Part shown: positions 24,333-36,118 of the stretch, in pieces
How the letters are laid out: each line of letters opens with the position of its first letter
Position numbering within the stretch: the first letter of the stretch is position 1
Assembly (NCBI GenBank): GCA_030054095.1
Contig: JASGCO010000011.1
Span: forward strand, 1-64,000
Source of the DNA: Sediminibacterium sp.
GTDB lineage: Bacteria > Bacteroidota > Bacteroidia > B-17B0 > Aurantibacillaceae
Length of the DNA stretch: 64,000 nt
Direction: 5' to 3'
Program-made: the position numbers and the translations under genes
Notes under the pieces: generated by a model
The model's database searches: none
Seen by the model: the letters and a program-made list of their open reading frames with translations, nothing else
Told to the model about the DNA's origin: nothing

Positions 24333-24878
24333 TCAGTTTTCCTGCTTTGTTCTTGGGATGGTGATATATAATGAGTAAAAAAAGTCTCCAGATTCGGTTT
24401 CATCAAAACTATACTCCAGTTTTTGTCCTGATTTTCGGGCAATATCTATTAAGCCGAGCCCCGCGCCGCCTTTTTCGGAAAGGGCACCTGACTTGATGAG
24501 TTCTTTCTGAAGGCTTTTTAATCCTTCTTTGTCCAGACTATTGATTTGTTCCAGTTTAGCTTTTAAAACCGGTACATTTTCCGCTTCCAGTAAATTTCCA
24601 GTACAGATGAAGTAATCCCCGTTTTTAATTCCAATAAAGAAAACGGATGTTTTATACTGTTCTTTCCGCTCGTCGGAATGCTTTACGATATTTTGCAAAC
24701 ATTCTACCATTACGTTAAATACCTTACGTTTAATAATAAGGTCTTCTTTCATGCTGTCCATGTTGTGTTCCGTCATTGATAAAACGGATTTCATAATGTC
24801 CTGAGTAAACTCACCTTCGTAAACCAGCATGATTTTGTTGTTTAGCATGATTTCATGCAATCGTCTGATAAATTCCAT
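24333..24878 (-). CDS. SiaB-family protein kinase (copy 1)
   Basis: The 181-residue protein matches the SiaB/DUF6272 family, a histidine-kinase-like ATPase fold that phosphorylates SiaC. The N-terminal block is NNKIMLVYEGEFTQDIMKSV, the N-box-like helix is KVFNVMVECLQNIVKHSDER, and the ATP-lid glycines are EKGGAGLGLIDIARKSG. It is clearly paralogous to the protein at 29586. It starts three bases after the SpoIIE phosphatase stop and ends the minus-strand operon. In Pseudomonas, SiaB opposes the phosphatase SiaA. Confidence 0.88.
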   Translation of the reverse strand: MEFIRRLHEIMLNNKIMLVYEGEFTQDIMKSVLSMTEHNMDSMKEDLIIKRKVFNVMVECLQNIVKHSDERKEQYKTSVFFIGIKNGDYFICTGNLLEAENVPVLKAKLEQINSLDKEGLKSLQKELIKSGALSEKGGAGLGLIDIARKSGQKLEYSFDETESGDFFYSLYITIPRTKQEN

Positions 24879-24881
24879 AAC

Positions 24882-27479
24882 TTAAAATTTTATGCCTATT
24901 AATAAAACGTCGTCCATTTGTTTATAGGGACCTTTCCATGTATCAAATTCATTAATAAATAATTGTTCCATTTCTCCGATACCATTTGCCGCATGTGTGC
25001 CAATCAGTTCTTTTACCCGTTTACTCATGAATTTTTGTTTGCCATCACTTCCGCCAAATTGATCAGGTAAACCGTCTGTATTCATAAAAATAGAGTCGTT
25101 TGGCTTTACCTTCAGCGAATGATTGGTAAACGCTTGCCTGTTTTTGTAGTACATACCGGCAATAGGATATTTATCCCCTTTAAATTCGGTTACATTACCT
25201 TCCGAATAATGGTAAAGCGGACGGTGAGCTCCGGCAAATTCTATCTGAAAGTGTTTACGGTTAATTTTGCACAAAGCGATATCCATTCCATCCTTAGCTT
25301 GTGTGTCGCCTGTATCTTGTTTCAGTGTTTTTTGCACCCTTTCATGTAACAGATCCAGAATCTGACCAGGACTATAATCTTTGGGTTCATTCATGATCTG
25401 GTTAAGTGTAAAATAGCCGACAAAACTCATAAGTGCGCCGGGAACGCCATGTCCGGTACAATCTACAGCAGCAATAAATATGTTGTCTCCTTTCTGATAA
25501 ATGTAAGGAAAATCACCGCTCACAATATCTTTACTCCGGTAGAACATAAAGCATTCCGGAAAAAAATGCCTGAGGGTTTGCTGGGTAGGCATCAGGGCAT
25601 TTTGAATTCTGTATGAGTATTGAATACTTTCGGTGATGCTTTTGTTTTTATGTATAATTTCGGCTTCAATCTTTTTCCGGGCGGTAATATCGTGGGCCAC
25701 AATAAGTACAGTTGCCGTTTCGCCATTTTGATCGCGTTCGGGTATTCCGTTAATAGTATAGATTTTGTCACCTTCTACGGTAGCAAAATGTTCTTCTGTC
25801 TGCACATTTTTTTGTACTGAATGAATCTGTTCCAGAATTTTATCGAATGCAGCGATCAGATAATCCGGTAAGTCAGATTCAGGGTAAAACGCATTGATAA
25901 GGCTTTTTACGGTTAAACCAGTCATTTGCTGTATAACCGGATTACCGTAGTAAATCTTTTTATCGGTACCAAGTCTGAGAATGAGGTCGTGTGAGTTTTC
26001 GGAAAGCGCCTGCATTTGGCCGCGTAAACGTTGCTCTTTTTCGATCATTCGTCTGCCGGTAATATCGCGCGAGTTAATTACTATTCCCTGAATAGCTGTG
26101 TCGTAAAGCAGATTTGTGAAAATTGACTCAATCCAGATTTCCTCACCATTATTTTTTAAATAACGGAACTGTATAAACGAGGATGTGCCAGGTAATTCTA
26201 TAGCATCTTTAAAAATGGTATTAACTGCTTCCACATCATCTTCGGCCACATGAATGGTGTGGTGTTGATTAATATTTGTTTCTGCATCATACCCCAGAAT
26301 ATGCCTTACTGATGGAGATTGATACCGTATAATTCCATCCTTATCAACAATAGTCACAATTTCGGAGGCATGTTCCAATAGCGCGTTTTGTTGTTTCTGA
26401 ATGTTGTTTACCGCAATAATCTGATTTTCCAGTTTGGCATTGGTTTTTTCCAGCTCAATGCGTGCCTGTTCCATTTCTTCGGCATTTTGAAGAAGTTGAG
26501 CGCGTTGTTCTCTTAACTCGCTACTCATCTGTTGCGATTCGCTCAGTAGTTTTAGTGTACGTTCATTAACCGTAACATTAAATATTGTTCGGGCAATACT
26601 GCTTCCTACCTGTAACATAAAATTACGGTGCAACTCGCTAATAGGATGAACCGAGGCCATTTCAATAACGCCGTAAACGCTTGCGTTTGTTATAAGCGGT
26701 GTAATTAAAATGGCTCGTGGCCGTTGTTCTCCGAGTAAACCAGAGGTAATGGTTACATAATTGGATGGAATTTCTGTTCTGTAAAGCTGGTCTTGTTCTA
26801 TAACGGCCTGACCAACCAATCCTTCACCGGCTTTGAAACGGCCTTTAATGTATTTTTTACGGCTGTAGGCGTAAGTAGATATCAGTTCAATCTCTTGTTT
26901 TTCTCGCTCTTCCGATTCATAGGCCAGATAAAAAGCACACTGAATACAATTTAACTTTGTGGAAAAATAAGCAGATAGCGCGTCGCCAAGTTCTTTTAAA
27001 TTCGGATACTTCCGAAGCAATTCGCCAACTTCACTGACACCTGTAATAATAAAACGCCGCTGTTGTTCTTCTTCAGATGCTTTTCGGATGTTATCCCTCA
27101 TTTGTATAAGGGAGGTTACCAGTTTGTCGTTAGTATCGTCAAAGTTGTGAGCATAATTAAAGTCAGCTTTTCCTATTGCCTCCGCAAAATTTGATACTTT
27201 TTCAACAAGTACAATTTGCTTGTTGCGTTCGTCAATGGTCAGGTTCATTCTGTCAATCAGAAAATAGAGTAGCAGGAACGAAACAGCCGGCAGAATAACG
27301 GGGGCCAGAAGAATTATTTTAAATAGCGAATTGTCAAAGGCTGTTTTAAATAGATTGACACTAAAAGATATGTCAGTTTCGTGAGAAATAATAAGTAATG
27401 CAATTATAGGAAAACAAATCCCCAACAGGAAGGATACTGCTATAACCGGTAGTCGCTGAAGTTTTTTAATTTGTTTCAT
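24882..27479 (-). CDS. Membrane GAF-PAS-PAS SpoIIE/PP2C-type phosphatase (SiaA analogue)
   Basis: The roughly 865-residue signalling phosphatase has, in order: two N-terminal membrane helices (about residues 10-70), a GAF domain (about 150-300), a coiled coil, two PAS domains (about 370-600), and a SpoIIE/PP2C domain (about 625-865). The metal-site motifs are SKDIVSGDFPYIY, AVDCTGHGVPGALMS, KDGMDIALCKI and MNTDGLPDQFGG. It probably dephosphorylates a SiaC-type protein at the membrane in response to ligand or redox input. ATG 27479 avoids a 35-base overlap with the preceding gene that the in-frame ATG at 27524 would create. Confidence 0.9.
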   Translation of the reverse strand: MKQIKKLQRLPVIAVSFLLGICFPIIALLIISHETDISFSVNLFKTAFDNSLFKIILLAPVILPAVSFLLLYFLIDRMNLTIDERNKQIVLVEKVSNFAEAIGKADFNYAHNFDDTNDKLVTSLIQMRDNIRKASEEEQQRRFIITGVSEVGELLRKYPNLKELGDALSAYFSTKLNCIQCAFYLAYESEEREKQEIELISTYAYSRKKYIKGRFKAGEGLVGQAVIEQDQLYRTEIPSNYVTITSGLLGEQRPRAILITPLITNASVYGVIEMASVHPISELHRNFMLQVGSSIARTIFNVTVNERTLKLLSESQQMSSELREQRAQLLQNAEEMEQARIELEKTNAKLENQIIAVNNIQKQQNALLEHASEIVTIVDKDGIIRYQSPSVRHILGYDAETNINQHHTIHVAEDDVEAVNTIFKDAIELPGTSSFIQFRYLKNNGEEIWIESIFTNLLYDTAIQGIVINSRDITGRRMIEKEQRLRGQMQALSENSHDLILRLGTDKKIYYGNPVIQQMTGLTVKSLINAFYPESDLPDYLIAAFDKILEQIHSVQKNVQTEEHFATVEGDKIYTINGIPERDQNGETATVLIVAHDITARKKIEAEIIHKNKSITESIQYSYRIQNALMPTQQTLRHFFPECFMFYRSKDIVSGDFPYIYQKGDNIFIAAVDCTGHGVPGALMSFVGYFTLNQIMNEPKDYSPGQILDLLHERVQKTLKQDTGDTQAKDGMDIALCKINRKHFQIEFAGAHRPLYHYSEGNVTEFKGDKYPIAGMYYKNRQAFTNHSLKVKPNDSIFMNTDGLPDQFGGSDGKQKFMSKRVKELIGTHAANGIGEMEQLFINEFDTWKGPYKQMDDVLLIGIKF

Positions 27480-27489
27480 TTTTATTAAT

Positions 27490-27918
27490 TCAGGAAGGTT
27501 GTAGTGTGGTAAATAATTCGACATCTACCGCTTTCAGAAGTTCCAGTTTTTTTTCGTCAGGTTTATCAAAAAATGCAAACTCAAAAATAAGATTGACTTC
27601 ATTGTTTTTGAGAACAGGAAATATCAATATATGGGCAGGTCGGGCGGATCCTAAACCGGAAACTATTTTCAGATAGCCATCGGGTATATCCTCAATGTTC
27701 ATTGGCATTTTGTTTTTTGCTACCTGACCTATAAGTCCTTCGCCGTAGTGATATGAAGGTAGCGCGTCTTCATTTCCGGTATAAGCAAAGCCTTCCGTAA
27801 AGTGATAATTTCGGTCGGTCTCCGGAACATTGGTATCTGTGGTATATAAGATGGCCTGAACCGCGTTCAGATGATTGCACAGTTCCCAAAATTTTTTTTG
27901 TAATCCGCTTTTACTCAT
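27490..27918 (-). CDS. Single-domain GAF protein
   Basis: The 142-residue protein is one GAF domain: FWELCNHLNAVQAILYTTD, YHYGEGLIGQVAKNKMPMNI and SARPAHILIFPVLKNNEVNL follow the GAF strand order, with no output domain. It probably binds a small ligand or another GAF domain, such as that of the adjacent phosphatase. It overlaps the CheB stop (ATGA). Confidence 0.82.
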   Translation of the reverse strand: MSKSGLQKKFWELCNHLNAVQAILYTTDTNVPETDRNYHFTEGFAYTGNEDALPSYHYGEGLIGQVAKNKMPMNIEDIPDGYLKIVSGLGSARPAHILIFPVLKNNEVNLIFEFAFFDKPDEKKLELLKAVDVELFTTLQPS

Positions 27919-28484
27919 AGTTTATTCAAAGCTATTATTTTTTTTATAATATCTTCTGTTTTAAGTATGTATGTAGGAAGTTGCTGTTGGATAATGGATT
28001 CTGGCATTGTTTGGATTTCAGCTTCTTCGAGCGACTGCGCGATGAGGGTAGTGCCTCTGGCTTTAGCCAGAATACAGCCGTTTAAACCATCGCGGTTAGC
28101 ACCGGAAAGAATAATGCCCAGCATTTTGTTTTTATACACATACGAAAATGTGTCAAAAGTCAGATCAATGGACGGACGCGAAAAGGAAACCGATTCTTCA
28201 GTTGACAGAGAAAGTGTGCCGTTTATTTCGGCGTAGAGGTGGTAATTAGCCGGGGCAAGATAAACATACCCTTTCTGGAGTTTGGTTTTATCTTCAGGTT
28301 CTATCACCTTCAATGTACTTTTTTTATTCAGAACTTCTTCGAATCCGGAGCGTATGTGCTTTAACCGATGCAGACAAAGTACAACCGGAATGTTAAAATT
28401 GGCAGGTAATGCAGCCAGTATCCTGGTTACGACCTGAAAACTTCCGGCAGATCCTCCTATAACGATGACCTTAAAACGCTCCAC
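27915..28484 (-). CDS. CheB-type methylesterase without receiver domain
   Basis: The 189-residue protein is only the CheB catalytic domain. The triad is visible: Ser12 in VIGGSAGSFQ, His39 in LCLHRLKH, and Asp132 in SGANRDGLNG. YVYLAPANYHLY is another family block. It lacks the N-terminal receiver that gates CheB by CheA phosphorylation, so activity must be controlled otherwise, perhaps by the GAF protein. No chemoreceptor or CheA is nearby, so its methylated substrate is unknown. It starts seven bases after the CheR stop. Confidence 0.9.
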   Translation of the reverse strand: MERFKVIVIGGSAGSFQVVTRILAALPANFNIPVVLCLHRLKHIRSGFEEVLNKKSTLKVIEPEDKTKLQKGYVYLAPANYHLYAEINGTLSLSTEESVSFSRPSIDLTFDTFSYVYKNKMLGIILSGANRDGLNGCILAKARGTTLIAQSLEEAEIQTMPESIIQQQLPTYILKTEDIIKKIIALNKL

Positions 28485-28491
28485 ACTACAG

Positions 28492-29331
28492 TTAAACTAT
28501 TTTTTTATAGATTTTTTCTTCAACGGACAGTGGCTGGAAATCTTTGGCAGTAGAACACCAAACAATCGTTTCTTTAGAGCCGATGGCCAGAAACCCTCCT
28601 TTAAACAAACTATTGCTTATTGTATCCATTACCCTGTCCTGTAAATCAAAATTGAAGTAAATCATGACGTTTCGGCAAAGTACAATGTCAAATTTTGAAA
28701 AACCTTCTTCGCTCACCAGATTGTGTTTTCTGAAGTTGACGTTTTTAATGAGTGATTCATTATATTTGATAGTTGTTTGATCTGAGGATACTTTGTAGTA
28801 GTTTTCCAGCTTTCCAGAGGTTCCCAAACGGTCAAAGTTACTTTTGGTGGTGTCAAGACTGCGTATAGGATAAACGCCGGATTTAGCGTTAGCCAGTACC
28901 TCTGAATTGATATCTGATGCGAAAATCCTTGCCTTGTCAAGTAGCCCCATTTCCTGTAAAATTATACACATCGAATAAACTTCCTCTCCCGAAGAACAGG
29001 CGGCGTGCCAGATACGAATAACCGGGCTGGATACGAACTGGGACAATACTTCATCTCTCATCTTTCTCCAAAAGGATGGATCCCTGAACATTTCCGTCGT
29101 ATTTACCGTTATTTCCTTTACTGCCTGCTCGGCCAGAGAAGGATTAGCGTCAATTTTTCTTATCAGGTCATTTACTGATCCTGATTTGAAAAAAAACAAC
29201 AGGTGCTCAACGCGCCTTTTAAAGGAGGATAAAGCATAATCTCTGAAATCATAACCGTACTTTTCAAACAGAAATGTCTGGAATTGTTTTATAATGGTTA
29301 AACTCAGGTCGGTATCTTTGTTAAGAAGCAT
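28492..29331 (-). CDS. CheR-type glutamate methyltransferase
   Basis: The 279-residue protein has the alpha-helical CheR N-domain (about 1-70) and a SAM methyltransferase domain. The latter shows VNTTEMFRDPSFWRKMRDEV, IRIWHAACSSGEEVYSMCI (SAM loop), and FDIVLCRNVMIYFNFDLQDR, plus the terminal GGFLAIGSKE. It would methylate glutamates on a signalling protein and heads the minus-strand operon cheR-cheB-GAF-SpoIIE-siaB. A 254-base divergent promoter region separates it from the second siaB; I found no strong consensus box there. Confidence 0.92.
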   Translation of the reverse strand: MLLNKDTDLSLTIIKQFQTFLFEKYGYDFRDYALSSFKRRVEHLLFFFKSGSVNDLIRKIDANPSLAEQAVKEITVNTTEMFRDPSFWRKMRDEVLSQFVSSPVIRIWHAACSSGEEVYSMCIILQEMGLLDKARIFASDINSEVLANAKSGVYPIRSLDTTKSNFDRLGTSGKLENYYKVSSDQTTIKYNESLIKNVNFRKHNLVSEEGFSKFDIVLCRNVMIYFNFDLQDRVMDTISNSLFKGGFLAIGSKETIVWCSTAKDFQPLSVEEKIYKKIV

Positions 29332-29585: not shown

Positions 29586-30143
29586 ATGAATAGGGGCTTT
29601 ATTTATGATACCTTTAATGTTGTTCAACAGAATAAAATAATGTTGGTATATCAAGGAGAGTTTAATCAGGATATAGCTAAATCTGTTTTGGCGATGACAG
29701 AACGTAATCTTGACTTTTTTGGAGAAGACGTATCTGTTAAACGTAAAATATTTAATGTGATGGTAGAGTGTTTGCAGAATATCTGTAAGCACGCTGAGCA
29801 TTCAGATGCCAGACTAAGAGAAGCTATTTTTATGATAGGAATGGATAAGGACACTTATTTTGTTACTACCGGTAATCACATAGCAAACGAACACGTGGTA
29901 GGTCTCAGGAGTAAACTGCAAGAAATTAATCAGTTGGATAAGGAAGGTCTTAAAAAGATGTACAAAGGGTTGGTAAGTAATGATAAAGGGTTATCGGAAA
30001 AAGGAGGTGCCGGCCTAGGATTAGTGGATTTGGCGCGTAAATCAGGAGAGAAGTTACTCTATGATTTTTCGGCGGTAGATCATTGCGATACTAGTTTTTA
30101 TTCTTTGTTAATCAAAATTTCTAAAAATAAAATAATTCAATAA
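29586..30143 (+). CDS. SiaB-family protein kinase (copy 2)
   Basis: The 185-residue paralogue of the 24333-24878 protein shares NKIMLVYQGEFNQDI, KIFNVMVECLQNICKHAEH and EKGGAGLGLVDLARKSG. The latter two are the ATP-site helix and lid of the histidine-kinase-like fold. As first gene of the plus-strand operon, one base before the SiaC start, it is the likely cognate kinase of that SiaC. The N-termini of both paralogues align from this ATG, supporting the start. Confidence 0.88.
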   Translation: MNRGFIYDTFNVVQQNKIMLVYQGEFNQDIAKSVLAMTERNLDFFGEDVSVKRKIFNVMVECLQNICKHAEHSDARLREAIFMIGMDKDTYFVTTGNHIANEHVVGLRSKLQEINQLDKEGLKKMYKGLVSNDKGLSEKGGAGLGLVDLARKSGEKLLYDFSAVDHCDTSFYSLLIKISKNKIIQ

Positions 30144-30144
30144 C

Positions 30145-30519
30145 ATGGAAAATCTTACCATAAAAGCAACAGATGATACACCTGAAGTTAGTTTTGATAC
30201 CAGTGGTGTTATGATATTGAGCGGTCGTTCATTGCCTGAAGATGCCGCCAGTTTTTATAATCCTTTACTTCAATGGTTAAGTGACTATGGAAAATCGGGC
30301 GTAACCAATCCGGTTGTATTTGATATGAAACTGGAGTATTTTAATACGGCCTCTTCAAAGATGTTGCTCGATTTGTTTAACGAGCTGGAAAGTGTAGCAA
30401 AATCGGGGGTAGATGCTTTGGTTCGCTGGTATTATCCGGAAGGAGATGATGATATGCAGGAGGCGGGAGAGGAATATGCTGAATTAGTAGAAATACGTTT
30501 TGAAATGCTGACGTATTAA
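30145..30519 (+). CDS. SiaC-family regulatory phosphoprotein
   Basis: The 124-residue protein is a SiaC/DUF1987-type partner-switch protein. The conserved block FDMKLEYFNTASSKMLLDLF places Thr68 at the same number as the phosphorylated Thr68 of Pseudomonas aeruginosa SiaC, as I recall. Other family features are TPEVSFDTSGVMILSGRSLP and the acidic YPEGDDDMQEAG. In Pseudomonas, unphosphorylated SiaC activates the cyclase SiaD. No GGDEF protein is present here, so another target is expected. Confidence 0.9.
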   Translation: MENLTIKATDDTPEVSFDTSGVMILSGRSLPEDAASFYNPLLQWLSDYGKSGVTNPVVFDMKLEYFNTASSKMLLDLFNELESVAKSGVDALVRWYYPEGDDDMQEAGEEYAELVEIRFEMLTY

Positions 30520-30523
30520 GTAC

Positions 30524-31648
30524 ATGTTATTTCAACAGGAAATATTAAAGCTTATTGTTGATCTCTACGCCTCGGCAGCGAGATTGAATAAAAAAAAGCT
30601 ATCACTTAAGAAACAGTATCTGGCTGTTAATCTCCGGAATTACATTGAAGATTTTGATGCAATAAATGCGTTACTTGCCCAGCTTGATACAGAGTTAAAC
30701 ATGTCTTTTACCAATGAGGATATTGTTGGTGCCGGAATTGAGTTTCCTGTTGCGGATTCGGTGCGTTTGGTGCGCCTTTCTCAAAAGATAAATCAGCAAA
30801 CCAGCTATTGGCAAAAACTAGTGGTTATGCAACTGATTATTGAACAATTTCGCATAGGCGATATAACCAGTAATCAGCGTAATGAAGCCTTAGAGGCCAT
30901 CAGTTCGGTATTTAATTTAAGACTGAATGATTTTCAACAGATCAAGTATTTCTGCTATATAGACCTTTCTGAAAAAGATTTCGATGAACACACAGTAGTT
31001 GTATCTGCCGCGTCTCTGAACAGGCAAGAAGCATTGCAGGAGAAACGACACATTCTGATTTCAGGAATGCAAGGCTATATTATGTTTAAGAATATAGCAG
31101 GATTAATTTTATTCAAATATCTTGGAGGACAGGCTAATTATTTTTTTAATGGCACTATTCTGGAAAAGGGCAGGGCTTACCAACTAACAAATTATGGACA
31201 ATTACTGATCGAAAATACCACTCTGAATGCTGAGTTAATTAAAGACCAGTTGTTTCGTACATTCCGGTTTAACGACCTTTTGTTAAAACCTACTAATAAA
31301 ACACCTGAAGTAGAGTTAAACAGAGATAAACACACGTTAACCATTAACGGACGGCTTTATCCTGAAAACCCGTTTTCTTTTTTTGATACCATTAACGCGT
31401 GGATTGATTATTATTTGTCTGTTAATCCTCCTAAACTGGATATACACATTAATATCACTTATTACAACACAACCTCATCTAAGTTATTGCTCAATCTGCT
31501 TAAGAAAATACTTTCCTTTGGATCAGAAGCATTTGAAATCTCTATTACCTGGAAGTACGACAAAGATGATGAGGAAATGATGAGGACAATCAGCAACTAT
31601 GCTACGTTGCTAGATTTCCCGATAAGGGCAGAAGAAATTGACGATTAG
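30524..31648 (+). CDS. TerB-like/FHA-like module fused to a SiaC domain
   Basis: The 374-residue protein has three parts. Residues 1-145 are a TerB-like helical domain (EILKLIVDLYASAARLN, DSVRLVRLSQKINQQTSYWQ, NEALEAISSVFNLRLNDF). Residues about 155-250 are a beta-rich FHA-like segment (GMQGYIMFKN, ANYFFNGTILEKGRAYQLTN). Residues about 257-374 are a SiaC domain with YYNTTSSKLLLNLL, whose Thr316 aligns with the SiaC phosphosite. The first two parts are homologous to the N-terminus of the next protein, an ABC transporter. I infer an adaptor that passes the phospho-state to the transporter. Confidence 0.85.
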   Translation: MLFQQEILKLIVDLYASAARLNKKKLSLKKQYLAVNLRNYIEDFDAINALLAQLDTELNMSFTNEDIVGAGIEFPVADSVRLVRLSQKINQQTSYWQKLVVMQLIIEQFRIGDITSNQRNEALEAISSVFNLRLNDFQQIKYFCYIDLSEKDFDEHTVVVSAASLNRQEALQEKRHILISGMQGYIMFKNIAGLILFKYLGGQANYFFNGTILEKGRAYQLTNYGQLLIENTTLNAELIKDQLFRTFRFNDLLLKPTNKTPEVELNRDKHTLTINGRLYPENPFSFFDTINAWIDYYLSVNPPKLDIHINITYYNTTSSKLLLNLLKKILSFGSEAFEISITWKYDKDDEEMMRTISNYATLLDFPIRAEEIDD

Positions 31649-31656
31649 TATCCACT

Positions 31657-34600
31657 ATGAGCGAAGAGATATTAAAAGCCCTGATGCAATTGTTTGCGAT
31701 TATATCCAAACAGGATACTGGTTATTCGGATATACAAAGGCAGTTTGTTTCTTCATTTCTGAGAAATCAGGTAAATACGGAAAAGGTAGAACAATATCTG
31801 TTATTGTACGATACGTTTTTAACGGACAAAGAGGAACGTAAAACGGAAGTATCAGAAGTTAAAGAGGCAGAAAAGCGCCCTAAGCTAACGTCGGTTAAAG
31901 ATAGTGTAAGAACACTGGGCATCTGTAAAAAGATCAATAAAACACTGGTTCAGAAACAAAAAGTAGTGGTATTAACCCGACTTTTTGAAATGCTTAAAGC
32001 GGATCACGGTTTTACGGTCCAGCGTTTGGGAATTGTTGATACCGTTTCGGATGTGTTTAACATTAATGAAGCGGAAAAGAAATTAATCCGCCATTTTGTA
32101 GAAAGCGATAATCCTTACGCGTACGAATCAGCCGATTTACTTGTTATTGACGATAATAAACTGGTAACGTTAGATTACGTCAGTGGGATTAATCACATTA
32201 CTGCACCGGGTTTAAACGGATTTATCAGCATTATAAAAGTACAAAGTGTAGATATCTACTTCCTGCGTTATAACGGAGGAAGCGAAACTTTCCTGAACGG
32301 ACTACCCATTCAGGCTAATAATGTGTATTTACTTGCTCCTGGTAGTAATCTGCGTTTGCCAAGGGGAACCATTTATTACAGTGAAGTTGTATCGCATTTC
32401 GCATCGCGTTACGATTATGCTAAACTTGTGTTTCAGGCAGAGGCACTGGAGTATCGCTTCCCGAATGGAAAGCAAGGTTTAGTAAACATTAATATTGAAG
32501 AAAAGAGCGGTAACCTGATAGGAATCATGGGAGCCAGTGGTGCCGGTAAAACAACGTTGCTTAATGTATTAAGCGGACTTATTAAACCGGTATCAGGTGA
32601 TATAAAAATAAACGGAGATAGTGTATTGTCTAATCCCAAACTGGCAAAAGGACTTATTGGTTATATTGCTCAGGATGATTTATTGTTTGAAGACCTGACG
32701 GTGTATCAAAACCTTTTATATAATGCCGAACTCTGTTTTAAGCAATACGATACGTTTCAATTACACCGGATTGTTGCCAAAACGCTACATAGTCTTGGCT
32801 TGTACGAGATTAAAGATATAGTAGTTGGAAATCCGTTAAATAAGAAAATAAGTGGAGGACAACGTAAGCGATTGAACATTGCTTTAGAGTTAATTCGCGA
32901 ACCAGCCATCCTTTTTGTGGACGAGCCCACTTCGGGTTTATCATCGCGTGATAGCGAAAACGTGATGGACTTGTTAAAGGAACTTACTCAAAAAGGAAAA
33001 CTCATTTTTGTAGTAATCCACCAACCTTCATCAGACATTTTTAAAATGTTTGACAAACTGTTTTTGTTAGATGTTGGAGGTTTACCAATATATTATGGAA
33101 ACCCCATCCAGGGGGTTATGTACTTTAAGCAAGCCACTAATCAGCTAAACGCTGATGTGGGAGAATGTTATACCTGCGGGAATGTTAATCCGGAATTATT
33201 ATTCAATCTGATTGAATCTAAAGAGGTAGATGAATATGGTAGTTTTACAGATAGACGTAAATTTTCACCTAAAAACTGGAATGATCTGTTTCTAAAGAAA
33301 ATTAGGACCAGTTTTGAAACCAACCTGCCCGAAAGACCTAAAATTGTCAATAATACACCTGGTTTGTGGAAGCAACTGAGGGTGTTTATAAAACGGGATG
33401 TATTAAGTAAATTCAGTAACCGTCAGTACCTTTTGCTTAATTTATTGGAAGCACCCTTACTGGCTTTTATTCTGGCGTTCCTTATACGCTATATTGCTAA
33501 AGCAAAAGGGGGGACATATGTTTACCGCGAAAACGAAAATATACCGGCTTACATATTTATGAGCATAATTGTGGCCTTGTTTATAGGTTTAACGGTAAGT
33601 GCGGAGGAAATTTTTAAGGACCGTAAAATACTGAAACGCGAGAAATTTCTGAATTTAAGCTGGTTTTCTTATCTGCAATCTAAAATCATTATTTTAACAG
33701 TATTGTCGGCTATACAAAGTATTTTGTTTGTGTTAATTGGAAATACAATTATTGGTATTAAGGGTATGTATTTCAGTTATTGGCTAATGCTATTCAGTGT
33801 GTCTTGTTGTGCCAACTTAATGGGATTGATCATAAGCTCTCTGTTTAATACAGCTGTTACCATCTATATTGTTATTCCTTTGCTTATTATTCCTCAAATG
33901 ATTTTGGGAGGAGCTATGTTCCGGTTTGATAAGTTAAACCGGCTTATAGGGGATGGAAGTAAAGCGCCTTTGGTGTCTGATGTCATGGTCAGCCGTTGGG
34001 CTTATGAAGGACTGATGATTCAGCAGTTCCGGTATAATAATTATTACAAGGTATTTTATGATCATGATCGGGAATTAGGACAGTTGAATTATCAAACGAT
34101 TTATTACATCCCCGAATTACTGCAAATCACTACTAATTGCAGGAATTCGATCAGTAATAAGAACACGAGTGAACTTTTTGATAACCTCAAACTGTTGAAG
34201 ATCGAAATTGAGAAACAGGAAATTATTACCGATAATCCCAAATTTACGCTAAAAAACAAGTTAAACATGGTTGATTTTAGCGAAAAAGTAGCCGATGAGT
34301 TAACAGCCTATTGGAATACGCTTTATAAAGTATATTCTCAGCGTTTTGCCGAACTGGATAAAAAGAAGAATGCTTATGTATCTTCTTTTCTAGAAAGTAG
34401 TGAAGCGGAAGTTAAATTTAACAGAATTAAGGATGAGTATTATAATCCCAGTATTGATGAGCAGGTAAATAATGAGTTGTCTAAACAAAAGTTCTTTATT
34501 AATACAAAAAACGGGTTTACGCAGCATTTTAACGCTGCGTATAATGAACCTCAACCGGAGCTGTTAAGCTTACGTCCCCACTTTTTTAGCCCTGTAAAAT

Positions 34601-34746
34601 ATTTTTTTGGTGTTAAACTCAATACTTTTCTGTTTAATGTTAGTATTATATGGTCTTTAAACTTGGTTTTTTTCATAATTTTGTATTCAGGAGTATTAAC
34701 TAAGGGTATTACATTTTTTATAAATATTAAAAGATCAAAACAATGA
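31657..34746 (+). CDS. ABCG-like ABC transporter with N-terminal TerB-like/FHA-like module
   Basis: The 1029-residue half-transporter has a TerB-like domain (about 1-150), an FHA-like segment (about 155-260; TFLNGLPIQANNVYLLAPGS), and an ABC domain. The latter shows Walker A GASGAGKTT with Lys298, AQDDLLFEDLTVYQ, signature SGGQRKR at 399-405, Walker B ILFVDEPTSG with Asp422, and His455. An ABC2-type membrane domain (about 590-800) and a long helical, probably extracytoplasmic or cytoplasmic insert (about 800-985) follow, then a last membrane helix. The ABC-then-membrane order is that of ABCG proteins. Substrate unknown. Confidence 0.88.
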   Translation: MSEEILKALMQLFAIISKQDTGYSDIQRQFVSSFLRNQVNTEKVEQYLLLYDTFLTDKEERKTEVSEVKEAEKRPKLTSVKDSVRTLGICKKINKTLVQKQKVVVLTRLFEMLKADHGFTVQRLGIVDTVSDVFNINEAEKKLIRHFVESDNPYAYESADLLVIDDNKLVTLDYVSGINHITAPGLNGFISIIKVQSVDIYFLRYNGGSETFLNGLPIQANNVYLLAPGSNLRLPRGTIYYSEVVSHFASRYDYAKLVFQAEALEYRFPNGKQGLVNINIEEKSGNLIGIMGASGAGKTTLLNVLSGLIKPVSGDIKINGDSVLSNPKLAKGLIGYIAQDDLLFEDLTVYQNLLYNAELCFKQYDTFQLHRIVAKTLHSLGLYEIKDIVVGNPLNKKISGGQRKRLNIALELIREPAILFVDEPTSGLSSRDSENVMDLLKELTQKGKLIFVVIHQPSSDIFKMFDKLFLLDVGGLPIYYGNPIQGVMYFKQATNQLNADVGECYTCGNVNPELLFNLIESKEVDEYGSFTDRRKFSPKNWNDLFLKKIRTSFETNLPERPKIVNNTPGLWKQLRVFIKRDVLSKFSNRQYLLLNLLEAPLLAFILAFLIRYIAKAKGGTYVYRENENIPAYIFMSIIVALFIGLTVSAEEIFKDRKILKREKFLNLSWFSYLQSKIIILTVLSAIQSILFVLIGNTIIGIKGMYFSYWLMLFSVSCCANLMGLIISSLFNTAVTIYIVIPLLIIPQMILGGAMFRFDKLNRLIGDGSKAPLVSDVMVSRWAYEGLMIQQFRYNNYYKVFYDHDRELGQLNYQTIYYIPELLQITTNCRNSISNKNTSELFDNLKLLKIEIEKQEIITDNPKFTLKNKLNMVDFSEKVADELTAYWNTLYKVYSQRFAELDKKKNAYVSSFLESSEAEVKFNRIKDEYYNPSIDEQVNNELSKQKFFINTKNGFTQHFNAAYNEPQPELLSLRPHFFSPVKYFFGVKLNTFLFNVSIIWSLNLVFFIILYSGVLTKGITFFINIKRSKQ

Positions 34747-35171
34747 AAATTAAATTACTTCGTTTCTCTTCCGTTCTTTTTATGCTGCTCAGTACAATGT
34801 TTACTGTTCGTGCGCAGTGTATTCAGGGCGAATGCAGCAAGAAGCTGGGGGATTTCACGTTTATTAAGTCGGTTAATATTAATAGTTCTTGTGTGGAAGG
34901 AAAGGCTAACCAGTTTAGTTATGTTTTCAGTCAGGGCAGCACTTACATGGTGTTGGCTTGCGATAGCGAGAAAAAGGGTGCCAGAATGATTGTTAATTTA
35001 TACGACAAGGAAAAAAATCTTATCGCCACTAATAAGAACCGTAAAAAATTCTATCCTTCCATCACATTTCCCTGCAGTGCTACCGGCGTGTATTATATTG
35101 AATCCTTTTATGAAGGAAGTAGCCCCGATGCCTGTGGAATTAATGTATTAGGCTTCTCCAGAACCCACTAA
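34743..35171 (+). CDS. Exported protein of unknown function (ABC operon)
   Basis: The 142-residue protein has an N-terminal signal peptide (LLRFSSVLFMLLSTMFTVRA, cleavage before QCIQG). The mature part has five to six cysteines, probably disulfide-paired, and alternating strands ending in TGVYYIESFYEGSSPDACG. It resembles small beta-sandwich periplasmic domains, but I do not recognise a family. Its ATG overlaps the ABC transporter stop (ATGA), so production is coupled to the exporter. Confidence 0.75.
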   Translation: MKIKLLRFSSVLFMLLSTMFTVRAQCIQGECSKKLGDFTFIKSVNINSSCVEGKANQFSYVFSQGSTYMVLACDSEKKGARMIVNLYDKEKNLIATNKNRKKFYPSITFPCSATGVYYIESFYEGSSPDACGINVLGFSRTH

Positions 35172-35218
35172 AATTTAGTAACTGTAACTTTCTCAATTTA
35201 TCAAGCGTATAAAATACA

Positions 35219-36118
35219 ATGAAAAAATTAATCCCCGTTCTTTTTCCGGTTTTGTTTCTTTTTGCATGTGGAGATTCAGAGGATAAACTTGAACAGAAAT
35301 CTCAGGAAACGGATTCCGTTTCTTTAGCTCTTAAACCTATTGATGTAAGTGAAGAAACCATTAATGGAATTATACAGTCTATTCCTACACCGATAGAAAT
35401 AGCCAGCCTTTTAAAAAGTAATGGCGCTACTTACGATGCCGCTATTTTAAATGCTACGGAAAGTGCCAGTAAGTATAATACCAATTATTCCAAAGCACTC
35501 AATATTGGTATTTACAGCGCTGATTTGGGGTATATCAATATTTACGAAAAAACGTTTTCGGCAGTTAATTACCTCAGTACAGTTAAAGGGCTCGCTGACG
35601 ATATAAAAATAGGTCAGTTTTTTGATTTTGAAACGCTTAAACGTTTAGCCTCAAGCAATAACAATTATGATTCATTGTTATATGTGAGTACCGATAATTT
35701 TAATAAAATGGACGGGTTTCTGCGTGAACAAAAACGTGGAGAATTAAGTGTATTAATGATTTCAGGGGCCTGGCTGGAAGGCTTGTATATCGCTACTCAG
35801 GTGAATAAACAAGTGAAAACAAAAGAACTGAAAGAACGTATCGGTTTTGAAAAAATAAATCTTGATAATATTCTGGTGATTTTAAATGCCTACAAGCAGG
35901 ATAAATATTTCGCCAGCATAGTATCGGAATTTGATAAACTGAAAGCTATCTACGATAGTATTAAAATCACTTACGAATACAAAGAGCCGGAAACCAAGGA
36001 AGTAAATGGTCAGTTGGTTATTGTAAATAACAGTAAGAGTACGGTGGATATAACCGATGAGCAGGTACTTAAGATTACAGAAACCCTGTCTCAGGTCAGA
36101 GCAAATATGGTGAAGTAA
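35219..36118 (+). CDS. Lipoprotein of unknown function (ABC operon)
   Basis: The 299-residue protein has a lipoprotein signal: MKKLIPVLFPVLFLFACGDS with lipobox Cys17. The mature part is mostly helical (SYTKALNIGIYSADLGYINI-like segments, VSTDNFNKMDGFLREQKRG) and has repeated YxxDxK features. I do not recognise the family. It follows the small exported gene by 47 bases and is the last gene of the plus-strand operon. Its 3' end overlaps miaA by 23 bases, convergently. Confidence 0.75.
   Translation: MKKLIPVLFPVLFLFACGDSEDKLEQKSQETDSVSLALKPIDVSEETINGIIQSIPTPIEIASLLKSNGATYDAAILNATESASKYNTNYSKALNIGIYSADLGYINIYEKTFSAVNYLSTVKGLADDIKIGQFFDFETLKRLASSNNNYDSLLYVSTDNFNKMDGFLREQKRGELSVLMISGAWLEGLYIATQVNKQVKTKELKERIGFEKINLDNILVILNAYKQDKYFASIVSEFDKLKAIYDSIKITYEYKEPETKEVNGQLVIVNNSKSTVDITDEQVLKITETLSQVRANMVK

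Follow-up and report, generated by a model that had tools for sequence, protein, structure and literature searches.

A TerB-FHA-SiaC fusion protein and the adjoining ABC transporter share an N-terminal module in a SiaB/SiaC operon of Sediminibacterium sp.

Comparison with described systems

In Pseudomonas aeruginosa, the kinase SiaB phosphorylates SiaC at Thr68 and SiaA dephosphorylates it (PMC7647112). In its unphosphorylated form, SiaC binds SiaD and activates it; phosphorylation of Thr68 blocks this step (PMC8457831). The STAS protein MlaB binds the ATP-binding cassette (ABC) ATPase MlaF, a contact weakened by the phosphomimic T52E (PMC7367683), and the threonine-phosphorylated protein Rv2623 binds an FHA domain of Rv1747, an ABC transporter that it regulates (PMC5549992). 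Here, we describe a locus in a stretch of 64,000 nucleotides from Sediminibacterium sp. (assembly GCA_030054095.1, contig JASGCO010000011.1; the window) in which a 374-amino-acid (aa) fusion protein ending in SiaC (30524-31648, + strand) and the 1029-aa ABC transporter that follows it (31657-34746, + strand) begin with homologous modules of about 240 residues.

The locus resembles the SiaABCD system (SiaA, PP2C phosphatase; SiaB, kinase; SiaC, DUF1987 protein; SiaD, diguanylate cyclase) in its PP2C phosphatase, its SiaB with Glu61 and its SiaC with Thr68 and the SiaC fold. It differs in that siaC adjoins a TerB-FHA-ABCG transporter and no diguanylate cyclase follows, while the phosphatase has GAF and PAS domains, cheR and cheB are added and a TerB-FHA-SiaC fusion is present. 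With Rv1747 of Mycobacterium tuberculosis and its partners PknF and Rv2623 (PMC5549992, PMC3908365), the transporter has in common an N-terminal FHA domain, a single chain that holds both the nucleotide-binding domain (NBD) and the membrane domain, and partners of threonine phosphorylation; however, the FHA domain of the window family has no conserved Arg, Ser or His and is preceded by TerB, and the kinase is SiaB type rather than Hanks type. Judging by these residues, binding of a phosphothreonine partner in the canonical Rv1747-like form is not expected. The likeness to MlaFEDB lies in a STAS-fold protein that adjoins an ABC transporter and has a Thr at the equivalent site (PMC7367683), although no kinase or phosphatase is known for MlaB, its target is the ATPase of an MCE-type rather than an ABCG-type transporter, and direct binding has been shown for Mla only. 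We found no paper in the open-access literature describing a siaB-siaC-ABC operon; the transporter is a probable new output for a SiaC switch, and SiaC a probable new regulator for an FHA-ABC transporter.

A module common to the fusion and the transporter

The two proteins and the domains that make up the common module are as follows.

30524..31648, + strand: TerB-FHA-SiaC fusion protein, 374 aa (BLASTP, Pfam, AlphaFold2, Foldseek and hhalign)
30536..30958, + strand: TerB-like helical domain of the fusion, residues 5-145 (seven helices in the AlphaFold2 model; homology to the ABC module)
30992..31252, + strand: FHA-like part of the fusion, residues 157-243 (AlphaFold2 model; weak FHA matches in Foldseek)
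31657..34746, + strand: TerB-FHA-ABCG half-transporter, 1029 aa (ABC_tran and ABC2_membrane)
31663..32103, + strand: TerB-like domain of the transporter, residues 3-149 (AlphaFold2 pLDDT 87.7; TerB matches of the family)
32137..32376, + strand: FHA-like domain of the transporter, residues 161-240 (Foldseek)

Both open reading frames have the positions and lengths given in the original prediction, and Pfam places SiaC at the C terminus of one and an ABC transporter at that of the other, as it had claimed. Its central proposal, that the two proteins begin with the same module, was borne out. BLASTP joined residues 5 to 234 of the fusion with residues 3 to 239 of the transporter in one collinear alignment of 238 columns (23% identity; E value of 1e-10 for this single comparison), inside which fall all four motif pairs that had been noticed by eye. 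A hidden Markov model built only from ABC N-terminal modules matched the fusion with 76 bits, and profile alignment by hhalign of the two known fusion N-terminal halves against 30 ABC modules found them related with a probability of 98.6% (E value of 7e-16, 217 columns). Scored as a single sequence, the fusion reached 107, against a best value of 26.8 among 300 unrelated control proteins of 200 to 420 aa that were drawn from the same loci; the best of its shuffled versions scored 19.4. At the sequence level, the similarity is real homology, and hetero-oligomerization of the two modules is plausible.

Predicted structures, which are confident for both proteins, show the same order of elements, seven helices and then a beta-sandwich. 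The transporter module was modeled by AlphaFold2 with a mean predicted local distance difference test (pLDDT) score of 87.7, the helices spanning residues 3 to 149 and the sandwich residues 161 to 240. The fusion (pLDDT of 82, predicted template modeling score of 0.78) has TerB and FHA elements as in the transporter, followed by the SiaC fold. Alignments in which fusions and SiaC proteins were combined with ABC modules (A4 and A5) were misaligned and were dropped, the fusion being modeled from alignment A6. Pfam TerB was matched by 68 of the 73 family modules scanned (best E value of 5e-12); the match of the window transporter itself lies below the threshold (20.6 bits versus a cutoff of 24.4), and the Pfam scan of the fusion by itself reported no TerB match. 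For the transporter sandwich, Foldseek listed almost exclusively FHA domains with probabilities of up to 1.0, at E values of 0.006 or higher, none passing 0.001, and the FHA matches of the fusion sandwich were weak. An LNG motif is conserved in the FHA-like sandwich of the family. The FHA fold is best known for mediating interactions. The original prediction had called the module a sensor, a label that found no support, since what we find is a TerB-like plus an FHA-like domain and no ligand site was identified; going by the models, "docking module" would fit better.

A putative phosphorylation switch

Genes and domains of the putative switch are found on both strands.

31274..31636, + strand: SiaC domain of the fusion, residues 251-371, with the predicted phosphoacceptor Thr316 at 31469-31471
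30145..30519, + strand: siaC, stand-alone SiaC, 124 aa, Thr68 in YFNTASSK (PF09345, E value of 7e-37; aligns with P. aeruginosa SiaC)
29586..30143, + strand: siaB, 185-aa protein kinase of the SiaB family with the N-box E61-C-L-Q-N and the G-box GAGLGL (NF038262, E value of 7e-45, above cutoff)
24333..24878, - strand: siaB2, second SiaB-family kinase, 181 aa (NCBIfam NF038262, E value of 1e-48, above cutoff)
24882..27524, - strand: SiaA-like phosphatase, membrane-GAF-PAS-PAS-PP2C (SpoIIE), 880 aa (PF07228, E value of 4e-18; GAF and PAS matches)
28492..29331, - strand: cheR-type methyltransferase, first gene of the divergent half-operon (PF01739, E value of 3e-41)
27915..28484, - strand: cheB-type methylesterase (PF01339, E value of 9e-45)
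27490..27918, - strand: small GAF-domain protein (PF13185, E value of 4e-8)

The C terminus of the fusion (residues 255 to 368) belongs to the SiaC family PF09345 with an E value of 1e-28 and 99.7 bits, and the stand-alone siaC product reaches 126.2 bits (cutoff of 24.5 in both cases). The P. aeruginosa-type SiaC equivalog model of NCBIfam, NF038265, gave only 69 and 80 bits for the window SiaC proteins against a cutoff of 150, so we regard them as members of the family and not as equivalogs. In the AlphaFold2 model, the SiaC fold of the fusion matches P. aeruginosa SiaC with a target TM-score of 0.77 (Foldseek), and Thr316 aligns with Thr68. A Thr at this site is invariant in the fusion-like proteins (7/7), and NT is found there in 60 of the 62 siaC genes lying directly before an ABC gene. 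The enzymes that would act on it are encoded in the window as in the SiaABCD pathway: the siaB product matches P. aeruginosa SiaB (6kko_A; phmmer E value of 7.5e-11) and keeps Glu61 in the ECLQN box, and the metal-site motifs of the PP2C domain are intact.

The operon is split: the minus strand carries cheR-cheB-GAF-PP2C-siaB2, and the plus strand siaB-siaC-fusion-ABC-post1-lipo, where the genes from siaB to ABC are separated by only 1, 4 and 8 bases and the fusion lies between siaC and the transporter. A SiaD diguanylate cyclase as output was found in neither half-operon, the output position being occupied by the ABC transporter. A search of the divergent intergenic region for a Bacteroidota-type promoter gave no match, and a sigma-70 scan did no better than on shuffles. 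Each strand carries one of the two SiaB-family kinases (24333-24878 and 29586-30143), which suggests that siaB was duplicated at the break-up of the operon.

Recurrence of the operon

Among 80 named Bacteroidota-type transporter loci, 57 have siaC within 12 kb, and the usual order at the linked ones, in Bacteroidales, Cytophagales and Flavobacteriales, is cheR-cheB-GAF-PP2C-siaB-siaC-ABC-lipo-post1. Because these loci had been picked by similarity to queries that were mostly SiaC-linked, we added a class-wide genome sample with 74 transporter loci, 29 of which have siaC nearby. It lies within 1.1 kb at 26 of the 73 loci outside the window, where our estimate of the chance expectation, taking some 5 to 13 siaC genes per genome and with loci of related species not being independent, is 1 to 2%. 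Genome G000 has five siaC genes, and up to 13 matches per genome were found in another search. The coupling of phosphosignaling to transport, which the original prediction had derived from the duplicated module, is supported by the recurrent siaB-siaC-ABC adjacency across Bacteroidota, and more strongly than the sequence of the window alone could show. The fusion is not required for it, since most siaC-linked loci have only a plain siaC adjoining the same type of transporter.

A signature in TerB helix 80-96, DS before the conserved xIN motif (mostly DS..KIN), follows this linkage. Where siaC lies directly upstream, 63 of 64 transporters carry it; the count is 0 of 14 for those with a convergent siaC and 8 of 72 for those with no siaC nearby (18 more were unclassified). 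The fusion carries DSVR..KIN and thus has a module like those of the SiaC-linked transporters.

Six loci (L235, L236, L237, L238, L243 and L245) have another arrangement, SiaC-lipoprotein-ABC, with SiaB not directly alongside. At L145 (1760-2530), a tandem pair of siaC genes lies directly before the transporter, neither of them fused to the module, a possible intermediate toward the fusion.

Distribution and evolution of the fusion

Of the 40 genomes from the genus, two, that of the window and G081, have full-length matches to the window-type fusion; the two proteins are 61 to 62% identical and occupy the same slot. Three loci from two other genomes (L084, L085 and L089) have in this slot a protein of about 357 aa with a C-terminal SiaC. 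The N-terminal half of the L084 protein scored 31.9 against the module, in register and above all 300 controls, and is probably homologous to it by this measure; those of L085 and L089 did not exceed the controls. At L086, the slot holds only a 149-aa SiaC. In the module and SiaC trees, very long branches lead to both fusion types, and the window and L084 types might have one origin or separate ones. A module-like match in genome G273 (L071) was dropped, the reading frame resembling a TonB-dependent receptor.

Between the window and G081, the fusion has about 0.30 nonsynonymous substitutions per site (dN) with synonymous substitutions (dS) saturated or above 2.3, which points to protein-coding constraint and purifying selection. 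Its rate of change is three times that of the transporter (dN of 0.10).

Two orphan proteins of about 374 aa, L253 (6915-8039, + strand) and L254 (8160-9329, - strand), have a C-terminal SiaC with the FNT motif kept and no adjoining transporter. Their N-terminal halves are weakly similar to the TerB-FHA module, and from their sequences they are possibly a third group of SiaC fusions. Such proteins would suit an explanation in which fusion and transporter never touch and both bind, through TerB-FHA, the same third protein or membrane site, with the fusion as a parallel effector or as a decoy competitor that frees the transporter. The strong divergence of the two modules, at 23% identity, is also less expected for a conserved mutual interface. 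We consider this explanation unlikely: both window-type fusions directly precede the transporter gene (2/2), as do three more divergent candidates, and no third partner is known.

Possible mechanism and alternatives

The joining of SiaC to a homolog of the neighboring transporter's module in a recurrent operon suggests that Bacteroidota switch a membrane transporter on and off through a phosphorylatable partner protein. The membrane, GAF and PAS part of the PP2C phosphatase would read signals, possibly tuned by the CheR/CheB pair, and these would shift the balance between dephosphorylation by PP2C and phosphorylation by SiaB at Thr68 of SiaC. One phosphoform of SiaC, the unphosphorylated one by analogy with P. 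aeruginosa, would bind the cytoplasmic side of the TerB-FHA-ABCG transporter, most likely at the N-terminal TerB-FHA module, and gate ATPase activity or transport. In the window lineage, a second SiaC is fused to a module like that of the transporter, and the fusion would probably dock by like-with-like contact of the modules, or fill one of the two module positions in the transporter dimer, presenting a tethered and still phosphorylatable second SiaC. We infer both the control of the transporter by the phosphostate and its direction, together with the docking role of the module and the association of its two copies.

These parts differ in strength. That the phosphoswitch is coupled to the transporter is backed well by genome context and seems highly probable to us, while docking of the fusion through like modules is a tentative proposal, somewhat short of an even chance. 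Combined in one model, a SiaA/SiaB/SiaC-type switch with an ABCG-type transporter as output and a fusion docking by like modules, they stand about evenly balanced. The more general formulation, a Bacteroidota partner switch acting directly on the transporter, in which SiaC binds the TerB-FHA module and the hybrid is an added, module-swapped subunit in some species, may hold but is, to our mind, slightly more doubtful than the combined model.

Several observations weigh against this scheme. The FHA-like domain lacks the conserved GR/SxxH phosphate site (of GR, SxxH and N, no conserved Arg, Ser or His was found in the first half of the sandwich), so a canonical contact between phosphothreonine-SiaC and FHA is unlikely. 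Some 60% of the transporter copies lack a neighboring siaC, and the module must therefore work without siaC too. The DS..KIN signature may track a clade, in which case inheritance alone could explain it, and it is no proof of contact. The fusion module sits on a very long branch of the module tree, and an origin from the adjoining gene was not demonstrated. Finally, the co-evolution test was not specific, the partial correlations of SiaC distances being 0.26 for TerB, 0.25 for FHA and 0.27 for the C-terminal region of the transporter, 0.38 for SiaB and 0.11 for the lipoprotein.

The raw correlation between SiaC and NBD distances was 0.76, equal to the highest among the other transporter parts, which would also agree with control of the MlaB kind, where SiaC and the SiaC domain of the fusion bind the NBD directly, TerB-FHA has a different role, for instance in anchoring or dimerizing the transporter, and the fusion only adds an anchor. 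The STAS-like fold of SiaC (PMC8457831, PMC7647112) and the MlaB-MlaF structure with the effect of T52E (PMC7367683) favor it too, but the region common to fusion and transporter is the module and not the NBD, and the operon-linked signature lies in a TerB helix (the NBD was not scanned for signatures), so that we think it improbable. Still less probable, in our view, is that siaC and ABC genes adjoin merely through co-regulation under one condition and that the fusion, a by-product of duplication under relaxed selection, has no role at the transporter. The many transporters without siaC and the faster evolution of a fusion found in few species would fit such an origin, but siaC often lies right beside the transporter gene in one orientation or the other, co-transcription cannot explain the convergent pairs, and the fusion is constrained, with no stops at 61% identity and the Thr kept.

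The fusion offers a useful natural clue to the part of the transporter touched by the switch. SiaC/DUF1987 proteins would gain a likely output besides cyclic di-GMP, in agreement with the idea, put forward earlier, that their role is to modulate neighboring proteins (PMC8457831). The work on MlaB and MlaF reported no other STAS-ABC pair in the PDB and left phosphorylation control open (PMC7367683); with a STAS-like phosphoprotein, kinase, phosphatase and ABC transporter encoded together in many Bacteroidota, this question becomes testable in one operon.

The transporter and its exported companions

The remaining domains of the transporter and the two genes downstream complete the locus.

32440..33096, + strand: NBD of the transporter, residues 262-480
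33373..34026, + strand: ABC2 membrane domain of the transporter, residues 573-790
34743..35171, + strand: post1, 142-aa protein with signal peptide (sequence)
35219..36118, + strand: lipo, 299-aa lipoprotein with lipobox-like LFAC (sequence)

As in ABCG-type half-transporters, the NBD (ABC_tran, E value of 1e-29) precedes the membrane domain (ABC2_membrane, E value of 5e-24), and Walker A (residue 292), the signature ISGGQ (398) and Walker B (418) are intact. A loop of about 230 residues separates the ABC2 membrane domain from the last hydrophobic segment. The products of post1 and lipo (34743-36118), for which no Pfam family was matched, accompany the transporter family at most loci whether siaC is present or not (post1 at 51 and lipo at 63 of the 74 sampled loci) and are probably envelope subunits of the transporter. 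The window's own genome carries a second TerB-FHA-ABCG transporter with a lipoprotein on contig C55 (L108, 6321-11374), without siaB or siaC, and similar copies are frequent in the genus.

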